A stretch of 52,010 nt of DNA from Spirochaetota bacterium (lineage in GTDB: Bacteria > Spirochaetota > UBA4802 > JAGODF01): contig JAOAAF010000007.1 in assembly GCA_026419015.1 (NCBI GenBank), positions 305 to 52,314 on the forward strand, given 5' to 3'. Below, in pieces: positions 26,602 through 47,011 of this stretch; the stretch's first letter is position 1; every line of letters begins with the position of its first letter. A program made the position numbers and the translations under genes. The notes under the pieces are model-generated. The model had not been told where the DNA came from and made no database searches. It was given only the letters and a program-made list of their open reading frames with translations.

Positions 26602-27537
26602 ATGAGCACAACAACACCACAACGATTTCCACTTGCAGGGCTTTTTGTAATTTTCGCGGTTATGCTCATTGGCTCTTCGTTTATCACCGTGGGCTATTTT
26701 TATTTTGCTGTGCGCGACAGAATTACAACGGCGGTTGAAACCATAAAAAGCGTGGCAATACCATTGTGTGAGTCTCTTGTTGAGTTGGCAGCAATGAGTT
26801 ACAAATTGCGAGATTATTCTTCATTCAAGAGTCTTGTTCACACAAAAATTCATGAGAATATCATCGATGAGGCCTTTTTTGTATTAAAGGACGGAACAAT
26901 TGTTGCGCATTCAAAACGCGGGGTTGAAAATGAACTAAAGGGGAATATTTTATATGATGAATTTGCATATAATATTGATCTTATTTTAGCACCGCTTAGG
27001 GATAATTCGAAAGAAATGCGGATAATTAACTACAATATAATTGGTAAAGAAATACCATTTAAGCGGTACCAACGAATATTTTTGAAACATAAAATATATC
27101 GCGATATCGATTCGACGGGATGGTTGGTGACGAAGGCGGTGTTTATAGCGCAAAAAGGGAAAGAAGAACCTATCGGAACGGTGAATTTCCTGATAAGCAA
27201 AGAACGAATTTATAAAGAAATTTTTATTGTCGCGGATCATTCCAAAATGCTTATGGGAGCGTTGAGCATACTCTCGTTTATCGGTGCGTTAATTATATCT
27301 CTCTACATGTATGTGAAATATAGAAAATTAAAATTGTTCGTGGCAGATAAAAAAATAGATGATAAGATACCCCAAAAAGTAGAGGAAGTTGTTGCTTTTC
27401 CGCTTGATGAAAGTATTCTTGATGTATCATTTTCTGAAGAAAAAAACCGTGGTTTTGAGGAAAAGCCAATTAATATCGCAAAACCAATAAGGGATGCAAT
27501 TCCCGTGCGGAAACGCGCTTTTGGAGTACGGCAATGA
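26602..27537 (+). CDS. Two-TM membrane sensor-like protein lacking an output domain
   Basis: 311 residues from ATG 26602 (TTG 26599 is adjacent). TM1 about 11-37, an extracytoplasmic domain of about 190 residues resembling a single Cache/dCache-like module (EAFFVLKDGTIVAHSKRGVENELKGNILYDEFAY), TM2 about 213-236, and a short charged cytoplasmic tail. No kinase, HAMP, GGDEF or MCP domain follows, so output must pass through a partner. The next gene, a STAS protein, overlaps by ATGA and is the obvious candidate. Family unknown beyond the Cache-like inference. Confidence 0.75.
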   Translation: MSTTTPQRFPLAGLFVIFAVMLIGSSFITVGYFYFAVRDRITTAVETIKSVAIPLCESLVELAAMSYKLRDYSSFKSLVHTKIHENIIDEAFFVLKDGTIVAHSKRGVENELKGNILYDEFAYNIDLILAPLRDNSKEMRIINYNIIGKEIPFKRYQRIFLKHKIYRDIDSTGWLVTKAVFIAQKGKEEPIGTVNFLISKERIYKEIFIVADHSKMLMGALSILSFIGALIISLYMYVKYRKLKLFVADKKIDDKIPQKVEEVVAFPLDESILDVSFSEEKNRGFEEKPINIAKPIRDAIPVRKRAFGVRQ

Positions 27538-28217
27538 TTCTTATTGATCATCAAGACATATCAGGGGGAAAAATTGCTCAGCTCACACTCCGCGGAAAGT
27601 TAGATACAGAAACTGCGGGGGATTTTGAATCGTTTGTTGCAGAACTGATCCGCAAAGGGCGCCGCTATTTTCTTATAAATATCGAGGAACTTGATTATTG
27701 TAGCTCTGCGGGAATTGGACTTTTGTTGTATTTGCAAAAGAAGGTAATCTCACATGGGGGATTGATAACAATTTCTGGCGCTTCGGATGAATTCATTACC
27801 ATTTTTTCGATATTTGGGCTCGATCGGATCATTGCGCTAACGGAAAACCCACAAGAGGGGATTTCGCTTCTTGAAAAAAATATTCAATTTAATCGAAGCA
27901 GCGGAAAGGAGAAGATGAATTTCCCTTCCTCCATAGATGGAATTCCGAGAAAAGTAGAAGTATATGAAATAAAAGATGAAGAGGAAAGTAAACTCTACAA
28001 TGAGCAGAGAGGAGATTACAATGGAAGAACACCTGTGGAACTCAAAGAAGTTGTTGTCGATGTTGAGCAGAAAGGAAGCGTCGATTTTGCTTCCCCCTTG
28101 ATTGTTGAGTGTGCCGAATGCGGTACCTTCACAAGAGTTGTGCGAAGCGGAGCATATCTTTGCCCTGAATGCCATGCGGAGTTTACTGTGGAAAAAGATC
28201 AGACGATTATTTTTTAA
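27534..28217 (+). CDS. STAS-domain protein (anti-sigma antagonist-like) with C-terminal zinc ribbon
   Basis: 227 residues. The N-terminal STAS domain (about 1-115) has LRGKLDTETAGDFESFV and LDYCSSAGIGLLLYLQK, where S57/S58 is the site phosphorylated in SpoIIAA-type proteins. A linker of about 65 residues leads to a zinc ribbon (CAECG to CPECHAEF, two CxxC pairs, about 188-213). STAS proteins relay partner-switching signals; the fused zinc ribbon is uncommon and could bind protein or nucleic acid. The ATGA overlap with the sensor gene indicates a dedicated two-protein signalling unit. Confidence 0.85.
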   Translation: MILIDHQDISGGKIAQLTLRGKLDTETAGDFESFVAELIRKGRRYFLINIEELDYCSSAGIGLLLYLQKKVISHGGLITISGASDEFITIFSIFGLDRIIALTENPQEGISLLEKNIQFNRSSGKEKMNFPSSIDGIPRKVEVYEIKDEEESKLYNEQRGDYNGRTPVELKEVVVDVEQKGSVDFASPLIVECAECGTFTRVVRSGAYLCPECHAEFTVEKDQTIIF

Positions 28218-28316: not shown

Positions 28317-28883
28317 ATGAAAGTGGTACACGTTTTAAAAAAAATTGAAAGCATCGATGAAGATATTCGCGAACTTCGAAAGCTTGAAAAATCGCTGGCG
28401 AAAAACAAATCATTTACCACGCCAATTTATATGTCAATAGAGAAGCAAATTAACATACTTTTAGGTGAGAAAATAAAGCTTATGGAATTGAAGATAGCAA
28501 ATCCACCAAAAGAATTTGCAGAGGAAGTAGAAGCAGAAACCCCATTGATTGGATTTCAGGAGGAAAAGAAGTCGACCAATGAAAAAAAACAAAAAGATTT
28601 ACAGTTAAAAGAAAAAAAAGTAAAGCAAAGAGGGAAAGTCGAGAAGGAAAAAGAGATTTCAGAAGAGTCGATACCCTTAGTCACGCAGGATTTTATTGAC
28701 CAGAAGATGAAAACCATTGAAGAATCGATTAAAAAAGAAAAAGAAGAGCCTGAAGGTGGCGATGTGCATATAAAGCTTCTTGATATTGCACTTGAAAAAG
28801 GCAGTATCAGCAAAAATGATATCGAAAATGAAAAAAAGAAAGTACGTTTTTTCAAAGATAATTTTCCTGGTGGGGAATATTGA
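28317..28883 (+). CDS. Highly charged coiled-coil protein of unknown function
   Basis: 188 residues, good ribosome site (aagaggg). Two predicted helices at the N-terminus (about 1-66, KKIESIDEDIRELRKLEKSLA), then an extremely Lys/Glu-rich low-complexity segment (about 80-150) and a short ordered tail (DVHIKLLDIALEKGSISKNDIENEKKK). No signal peptide or known domain is recognised. The gene stands alone, 20 bp from the convergent adenylate cyclase. Function unknown. Confidence 0.75.
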   Translation: MKVVHVLKKIESIDEDIRELRKLEKSLAKNKSFTTPIYMSIEKQINILLGEKIKLMELKIANPPKEFAEEVEAETPLIGFQEEKKSTNEKKQKDLQLKEKKVKQRGKVEKEKEISEESIPLVTQDFIDQKMKTIEESIKKEKEEPEGGDVHIKLLDIALEKGSISKNDIENEKKKVRFFKDNFPGGEY

Positions 28884-28903: not shown

Positions 28904-31690
28904 TTATAAGTTCAATTGCGTTTGAGAAAAGCATTTCTCAAGAATGTATTCAACTTTAAATTTTTCAAAAAAGTATTGTGTGCTTGTTGTAGGAGGGATC
29001 TCAGTCCCTCTGAATGCAATCTCGCGTATAAGGGGATAAATGACAAATCTTTCCTTTTGTAATTCTAAGATTTTTTTCGCAACAAGAGATATTTCTTTTA
29101 ATATATATGGACCGCATGTGTGTTTTCCTGGAAGTGTAAATTGATAACGTAAAGGTTCTCCTTTTTTTTGATATACAACCAAACTGATTTGATCATCGGT
29201 TTCAAATTTTCCAATAAATTCTGCTTCGATGAGTTTTGTAATATCAGTGAAATTCGCATTTTCAAATTTATCTGTTTTTAGCTTAATAATTTTAAAATTG
29301 TCTTTTATAAGAATATCCCTTCCATGGGCCTTATTGATGGTAAGGCTAATTTTGTTGCAAAAATTGAAAAGGTTGAGCAAGCAAATGTCTTTATATTTTA
29401 TTGATTTGGTGCAAAAAAAGAGATTTCCTTTTTCATTTATAATATAAAATGAGATTGCCTGTGATGTTTCTTCTACTATAATTGTAAGTGCAAAAGGTTT
29501 GTAGTGTTGATATGTTGTTTGCAAAGTATTTAATCGTTGATCGTCACCATAAAAACGGTATGATATTTCAGCTTTTGGTTTTAGCGAAATAGAAGTGAGA
29601 AGTGCGGGAATAGAATTGAAGGATTCATAATTTATTGAGTTCCCGTCTTTTGTAAAAAGATAGTATCTGTTTCCAAATCGCGTAATAAAGCGGGTGTCGG
29701 ATTTCGAGCAATGTTCAATGAGATGATTGTAAGCGTCTTTGAAAGTTGCAATTATGTTTTTATAAAACTTTTTATAGGTTTCAGGTGAACAAATGAGTAA
29801 ATAATCATCAAAAGATTTATTAATTTTCATCGCATCTGAAAGGATTGTTTTTAATATATTTGGAAAATCTTGTTCCGAGTTATATTCTTTTAAAAATGAT
29901 TCACCCCAGCTCGTAACATAGAGGTGGTGTATTGTTTTTATTTCATCAGCATTTTCGATGTTGAAATTGATAATTAGCATGTTTACAAGATTAAAAGCTT
30001 CAGAGAGGTAATATTCATTTTTAATTTTTATTTTTTCGTTGGTAAAAAACGTCGAAATTAAATTGAGCAGTTCTATTACCGCATTTTGGTTTATGCGATG
30101 GTAACCGGATTGAAGGTTTAACCGGGTATATGAAGGAATGTAGATTCTGTTGAGCGCAGCCCATGCCAGAAGTTTAAGTAAGTTTGAATCTGTTTTAATC
30201 GTAGTAGCTACGAACGTATCGGATTCGCTTCGATCTCGCTTATAAAGTCTCCATTCAGGATTTTGGACACCATGGTTTAATGGTTCAATGTATAGGATTG
30301 GTTCGCCTGGGGTATCTTTAAAAGTGATATGGTGATCGATTTTGTCTTTCTCTCGCCGAAAGTGTGTTTTTATTTTTCGCGATAAGAGCATAAAATCCGA
30401 TTCCGAAATTTTTGTTTGAAGGTTCAATTGTGGGAGCTGTTGCGAAATATTTTGATAACTCAAAATCATAAATCGGGTAACTCTATCCCAGAATTCCATT
30501 ATTTTATTGAAATCCCAGTTATCAAAATTATCGAGATCTTTGATTTCTTTCATTGTCCATTTCCACTCTTTCGCATAGGAAAGCATTACTTTCACTTTAT
30601 ATGGGATATTTTTGGGATCTTTCACCCCAGCGTATTTTGAAATTTGTGGGTCTGCTTTTAAGTAGAGGTTAATTTTTAAAATATCAAGCAATGAAGGTTC
30701 GGAAATTGTTTTTGAATAATAGTCGTAGACTTCTCGAAACATGAAAAGATAGGAGTCCAATATCGTATCATCTATTTTCCCATCGAGTACATTTATTTTG
30801 ATTTTTTGAGAGAGAAGCGATGATCCTCCGCCAAAGAGGTATTTTTCAAGAACCCCAAGTTTGATTATCGATTTAAAAGGATTTCCCAACGATTTTATTA
30901 TTTGGAAAAGAGCTGATCCAAGAAAATCTTCTTTTGATATTTCATAAAGATTACCTAAATCGATGAAATCGTTTTCTTTCATCTCGGGAGGAAGTTGTGC
31001 ATATAATTTGTCGTATTCCGCATTTGTATTGTAAGGAACTACCCACCAGAATGGTATTTTCCCCGCAATAATTATTGAACTTCGAAAGAATTCGTCTTTC
31101 AATACAGCACCAATGGTGGTACCGAATGCTTCTTCTTCGTCTTCGGCAAAAATGTTATTGCGTATGCTTTCAATGTCATTTACAAAAAGGTGAACTGGTA
31201 CTTCGAGTTCGCTTGTTGCCCACTTTTGAATTGCTTCTACTTTTTGGGTAAATAGCAAAAGTTGCTGTGAACTAGTGCTGGATTTATCAATACATACCCA
31301 ATAATCGAAATCGGATTTTTTATTGTATGCAACAGTGCCAATGCTGCCCATCACCGCGAGCATTTGAATAAATGGGTGACGAGTATCAATCTCAACTTTC
31401 ACGGTAGGATATTTTGCTTTTATAAACTTTTTTGTCTCATCATCGGGGGTATAACCGACAATGCCTATAGGAACATCTCCTTCAATGTAACCGGGTAACT
31501 TTTTATGATTTATACTTAAAAGAAATGGGATAGCATTTACGATTCTTTTTACATTAATATTCGGCAATAATTCTTGAAATCTCTGGAATTTCAAAGAATT
31601 GAAATGCAAAAATTTTGATTTATTTTCTTGTATGATTTGTAAGACGTCCATTGAAATAAAATTATCAAATATTAATGAGTTTATGTACAT
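28904..31690 (-). CDS. cyaA: Class I-type adenylate cyclase
   Basis: 928 residues, similar in size to the enterobacterial CyaA. The N-terminal nucleotidyltransferase-like catalytic core has GSIGTVAYNKKSDFDYWVCID (G115-S116, metal-binding D127 and D129), the class I signature, followed by LLLFTQKVEAIQKWA and GKIPFWWVVPYN as in CyaA. The remainder lacks an obvious known regulatory domain, and the EIIA-Glc contact region cannot be judged. It makes cAMP, probably sensed by the double CNB protein at 37596-38990. The start is uncertain: Met14 (31651) is the alternative and neither has a clear ribosome site. Confidence 0.85.
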   Translation of the reverse strand: MYINSLIFDNFISMDVLQIIQENKSKFLHFNSLKFQRFQELLPNINVKRIVNAIPFLLSINHKKLPGYIEGDVPIGIVGYTPDDETKKFIKAKYPTVKVEIDTRHPFIQMLAVMGSIGTVAYNKKSDFDYWVCIDKSSTSSQQLLLFTQKVEAIQKWATSELEVPVHLFVNDIESIRNNIFAEDEEEAFGTTIGAVLKDEFFRSSIIIAGKIPFWWVVPYNTNAEYDKLYAQLPPEMKENDFIDLGNLYEISKEDFLGSALFQIIKSLGNPFKSIIKLGVLEKYLFGGGSSLLSQKIKINVLDGKIDDTILDSYLFMFREVYDYYSKTISEPSLLDILKINLYLKADPQISKYAGVKDPKNIPYKVKVMLSYAKEWKWTMKEIKDLDNFDNWDFNKIMEFWDRVTRFMILSYQNISQQLPQLNLQTKISESDFMLLSRKIKTHFRREKDKIDHHITFKDTPGEPILYIEPLNHGVQNPEWRLYKRDRSESDTFVATTIKTDSNLLKLLAWAALNRIYIPSYTRLNLQSGYHRINQNAVIELLNLISTFFTNEKIKIKNEYYLSEAFNLVNMLIINFNIENADEIKTIHHLYVTSWGESFLKEYNSEQDFPNILKTILSDAMKINKSFDDYLLICSPETYKKFYKNIIATFKDAYNHLIEHCSKSDTRFITRFGNRYYLFTKDGNSINYESFNSIPALLTSISLKPKAEISYRFYGDDQRLNTLQTTYQHYKPFALTIIVEETSQAISFYIINEKGNLFFCTKSIKYKDICLLNLFNFCNKISLTINKAHGRDILIKDNFKIIKLKTDKFENANFTDITKLIEAEFIGKFETDDQISLVVYQKKGEPLRYQFTLPGKHTCGPYILKEISLVAKKILELQKERFVIYPLIREIAFRGTEIPPTTSTQYFFEKFKVEYILEKCFSQTQLNL

Positions 31691-46739: not shown

Positions 46740-46799
46740 TTAAGTTTTACCAAGAAAAATAGCGGTTATATAAAATATACTGCCTTTGTAATTTTTTAT

Positions 46800-46827
46800 T
46801 TGACAATTCTCAAGTAGAAAAAATACT
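46800..46827 (+). promoter_or_regulatory. Promoter of the tRNA-Phe gene
   Basis: TTGACA (46800-46805), a 16-nt spacer and AATACT (46822-46827), ending 10 bp before the tRNA. The perfect -35 and close position suit a tRNA promoter. Confidence 0.5.
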
Positions 46828-46837
46828 GGAAATGTGT

Positions 46838-46910
<73 letters not shown>

Positions 46911-47011
46911 CATAATCTTTTGCGATTTTGTATAACCAAAACAAGCTGTGATCATGAAATGCGCAAAATTATATTAAAATATTAAAAAACTAATAAAAAG
47001 GAGCGGTTCGT

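Follow-up and report, generated by a model that had tools for sequence, protein, structure and literature searches.

Bacterial receptors normally signal via an enzymatic domain or via a response regulator. In the window analyzed here (the whole 52,010-nt stretch of contig JAOAAF010000007.1 from the metagenome-assembled genome of a Spirochaetota bacterium), the gene of a membrane protein with no recognized output domain overlaps a gene coding for a STAS protein with a zinc-ribbon tail, which raises the question of how such a receptor could pass a signal into the cell. A sequence-only reading had proposed a compact signaling pair in which the STAS protein receives the signal directly, unlike the usual partner-switching modules. 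We found that the two genes are a real, strictly conserved two-gene module and a variant of STAS signaling. The relevant features are as follows (plus strand throughout).

26602..27537 (alternative start 26599), plus: output-less sensor, 311 aa (ORF list, TM prediction, model, Foldseek)
26635..26691, plus: TM1, sensor residues 12-30 (Kyte-Doolittle)
26809..27201, plus: core of the predicted periplasmic Cache/PDC-type domain, approximately residues 70-200 (AF2 model, Foldseek)
27247..27303, plus: TM2, sensor residues 216-234 (Kyte-Doolittle)
27487..27507, plus: conserved motif IRDAIPV, residues 296-302, proposed docking peptide (tail alignment)
27534..28217, plus: STAS and zinc-ribbon protein, 227 aa (Pfam, alignment)
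27573..27851, plus: STAS domain, residues 14-106, RsbV/SpoIIAA-type (PF01740, structure matches)
28086..28214, plus: C-terminal ribbon PLIVEC-x2-C...CP-x-C...F with C193, C196, C210, and C213 (alignment)

The sensor consists of TM1, a periplasmic Cache/PDC-type domain, TM2, a variable cytoplasmic linker, and a motif near the C-terminus. The expected two-TM protein with an outside domain and without an output domain was thus confirmed by Kyte-Doolittle analysis, Pfam/NCBIfam searches, and the AF2 model: no Pfam or NCBIfam family scored above cut-off in the sensor and no kinase, phosphatase, or GGDEF domain was recognized; a SpoIIE (PP2C) domain had no match in the sensor or in 19 aligned relatives. 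A PDB search with the sensor sequence gave nothing relevant. In the AF2 model, the domain between the two TM helices has pLDDT values mostly >90, and its best Foldseek match is the WalK extracellular domain (4ywz, E 5e-5, TM 0.75 by target length), with further matches to DctB and Tlp3. The predicted fold and its position between two TM helices qualify the protein as a probable Cache-domain receptor. It resembles WalK/YycG and DctB in the predicted fold of their extracytoplasmic Cache/PDC domains, but it carries no histidine kinase and its sequence falls below the Pfam Cache cut-offs.

The downstream protein, without TM segments by Kyte-Doolittle analysis, contains a clear STAS domain (PF01740, E 6.7e-14, 52 vs. 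22.6 bits cut-off; TIGR00377, 57.7 vs. 53.45 bits cut-off), and its closest PDB structures are of the SpoIIAA/RsbV type (1th8, 1tid, and 1vc1). Residues S57, S58, and G60 are invariant in the STAS alignment (A1), and S58, judged by where it stands ahead of that Gly, aligns with the phospho-serine in the (D/x)S(S/T/A)G motif of this family. Conservation in the protein is highest in the tail, a putative zinc ribbon whose four Cys are invariant in a 17-row alignment; a STAS protein with a terminal two-CxxC ribbon is therefore what the gene encodes, as the sequence-only reading had stated. The ribbon scores below every Pfam cut-off. It shares with MJ0042/TIGR02098-type ribbons the CxxC...CxxC arrangement followed by an F-x-V strand, but differs from them in its sub-threshold score (TIGR02098, 19.6 vs. 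20.9 bits), its C-terminal location on a STAS protein, and its own PLIVEC strand. Tandem zinc ribbons (two) occur on the STAS proteins of loci L085, L093, and L095-L098 (genus g13) and L094.

Next, we examined how strictly the two genes travel together. In the window both ORFs lie on the plus strand with a 4-nt overlap (ATGA). A sensor homolog is present in exactly one copy in 44 of the 46 genomes of the order, the genome of the window included, and the two genomes without it are 66 and 72% complete. In all 44 genomes with a sensor, the STAS-ribbon gene adjoins the sensor gene on the same strand, one copy each. With so many of the order's genomes keeping the pair, a chance arrangement is ruled out. 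The same organization was found beyond the order at 25 loci in six further spirochaete families (f11, f22, f34, f38, f41, and f46) with more diverged sensors; at one of the 25 loci (L203), the contig end cuts the STAS gene before the ribbon. The intergenic gaps are mostly -14 to +35 nt, larger apparent overlaps being due to upstream alternative start codons. This synteny supports the proposed compact pair. A promoter search gave 18 matches, where shuffled sequences gave 10.2 on average, with no clear candidate, and a terminator search gave none that was informative.

The part of the sensor that could reach a cytoplasmic partner is its tail, and here the sequence-only reading overlooked a conserved motif. 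A linker variable in length and sequence is followed, near the C-terminus, by the pattern [I/V/L]x[D/E]AI[P/Y/L][V/I/L], which in its loose form 63 of 64 sensors carry within their final 35 residues (4% of shuffled tails and 3% of other ORFs). The variants are DAIP(V/I) in the order, DAIYLD in f11, DAIL(I/V) in f22 and f38, and DAIPL in f34. The sole non-matching sensor (L232) ends with the near-variant PLDALYLGE, and a sensor added after the count of 64 tails (L244) ends with SLDAVYLD. The genome of the window has seven DNA matches to the motif. Only the one in the sensor falls close to the C-terminal end of a long ORF, and the idea of a general docking signal in this genome was accordingly rejected.

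We also constructed a tree of 84 STAS-ribbon proteins: 64 linked to the sensor, 13 without a recognizable sensor, and 7 encoded directly behind a SpoIIE phosphatase. All 64 sensor-linked proteins fall on one side of a branch with 100/99 support and the other 20 on the opposite side. Sensor linkage requires a single change on this tree, and none of 500 shuffles was as low. In the sensor-linked clade, 97% of the proteins have Glu at STAS position 86; in the other clade, 85% have Lys. S58 is kept in 97-100% of both. Frequent STAS homologs without the sensor had been named as evidence against a dedicated pair. Such proteins do exist, alone or behind SpoIIE, which counts partly against the proposal, but only outside the sensor-linked clade. 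Since the ribbon is also present in the sensor-less and SpoIIE-linked clade, it predates the output-less sensor or is independent of it, and therefore belongs to the ordinary makeup of a broader family of spirochaete STAS-ribbon proteins; the idea that it marks the pair was not upheld.

Can the tail motif contact the STAS-ribbon protein? Some relatives, locus L077 among them, have both genes in the same reading frame, so that reading through the single stop codon gives a tethered model of both proteins. In the L077 readthrough model (AF2, alignment of 38 rows only), the linker has pLDDT 42-54 and the motif block 77, with strands predicted at R286-D287 and I289-I291 within that block. In the control, the window sensor modeled alone (a different ortholog from L077), the tail has pLDDT 50-61 and the motif approximately 60, with no strand. 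In the L077 model the motif is tethered four residues before the start of STAS, and a tether this short can create false contacts. The prediction is indicative, not proof, that the sensor motif docks on the STAS-ribbon protein, and the motif could bind something else. The claim that the STAS protein receives the signal directly thus holds in part: a direct link via the conserved tail motif is plausible, but docking is indicated by one structure prediction.

The sequence-only reading had further set the pair apart from partner switching. This is true for the immediate neighborhood, where no RsbW, RsbU, or sigma factor gene was recognized near the pair, but not for the genome, which has 29 matches to STAS, 23 to SpoIIE, and 10 to HATPase_c_2, of which 5 HATPase_c_2 matches exceed the cut-off. 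The HATPase_c_2 and SpoIIE genes lie elsewhere and the STAS serine is kept, so that a partner-switching network is available in trans. In the mechanism that we propose, a receptor with a Cache/PDC domain outside, two TM helices, and no enzyme inside would end its variable linker with the I-x-D/E-A-I-P/Y/L-V/I/L peptide, which may dock by strand addition on the STAS-zinc-ribbon protein, presumably translationally coupled to it. Ligand binding outside would shift the STAS-ribbon protein between membrane-held and free states; its STAS part would act as a phosphorylatable RsbV/SpoIIAA-type switch relaying the signal to a serine kinase/anti-sigma protein from another part of the genome, and one of the numerous SpoIIE phosphatases could reset the phosphate. 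We consider this model, in which an RsbV-type protein that still works in trans partner switching is docked on and gated by the receptor, the most likely reading and give it an even chance as a whole. The likeness to RsbV/SpoIIAA antagonists lies in the STAS fold, the invariant serine before Gly, and the best PDB matches; the differences are the long variable linker and C-terminal zinc ribbon, the receptor partner, and the lack of a nearby RsbW or sigma gene.

Three other readings must be weighed against this model. With RsbU-type Cache-HAMP-SpoIIE proteins, too, the gene immediately before a STAS gene encodes an extracytoplasmic sensor, whereas the sensor described here has a short conserved tail motif instead of HAMP and SpoIIE. 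In the first of these readings, the sensor would be an RsbU-type receptor that has lost its SpoIIE domain or had it split off, with the motif recruiting a separate SpoIIE phosphatase that acts in trans on the neighboring STAS protein, as in ordinary partner switching. In f10, f28, f9, and f18, a SpoIIE protein is encoded ahead of the STAS-ribbon gene, and several of these proteins match the sensor profile in the part preceding HAMP/SpoIIE (L106, 6e-12; L213, 9e-9; L216, 5e-9); at L201, without STAS, the profile matches as well (6e-14). These matches would fit such an origin, as would the many SpoIIE matches in the genome. But the profile matches are weak and partly TM-driven, no SpoIIE gene was seen beside the pair, and the motif strand arises in a model that holds only the STAS-ribbon protein as partner. 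We consider this origin unlikely. As a separate observation, loci L212-L216 encode proteins of ∼1150 aa with a sensor-like segment before SpoIIE, directly upstream of the STAS-ribbon gene.

A murJ-like gene lies directly after the STAS-ribbon gene, often overlapping it, in six f34 loci (L211 and L239-L243) and two f11 loci (L210 and L244), which hints at an envelope role of the pair in these two families. The pair could then control envelope synthesis directly (e.g., through the lipid II flippase MurJ) with no sigma factor, the STAS-ribbon protein being a receptor-released adaptor; the top fold match of the sensor, the cell-wall sensor WalK, points the same way. We regard this as very unlikely, however: murJ is not beside the pair in its own order or in f22, f38, and f41, the WalK match reflects a generic Cache fold, and the STAS domain retains its phospho-switch serine. 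Degradation or targeting signals often sit near the C-terminus, as the motif does, and it might serve stability, sorting, or assembly and have nothing to do with the STAS protein, with co-transcription being historical only. This is quite improbable, since the pairing is strict and involves a single STAS-ribbon clade, and since the predicted strand forms when the STAS-ribbon protein is present.

To return to the docking and gating model, in many lineages of the phylum a receptor that has just a short peptide inside appears to be tied to a single STAS protein. In the open-license PMC literature, we found no paper that describes a STAS protein with a zinc ribbon or a sensor pair of this kind. 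If the model is true, partner switching gains a direct receptor input, the STAS-ribbon family, for which no description was found in the literature searched, gets explained, and the short motif may be used to find or rewire such pairs. That enzyme-free receptors throughout the spirochaetes control an anti-anti-sigma-type protein by peptide docking, an input step without kinase or phosphatase, is a more tentative and somewhat doubtful generalization.

The gene that follows the pair (28317-28883) was considered as a third member of the module and rejected: in 27 of 30 loci its neighbor is a class I adenylate cyclase gene, and in f5 and f7 it is separated from the pair. It encodes a 188-aa protein with no Pfam match above cut-off and ∼50-70% identity across the order, and it adjoins the cyclase gene (28904-31690 in the window) even where both are far from the sensor pair. 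Elsewhere in the window, a 71-aa ORF on the minus strand (46740-46955) lies over a tRNA-Phe gene (46838-46911) and is probably spurious.
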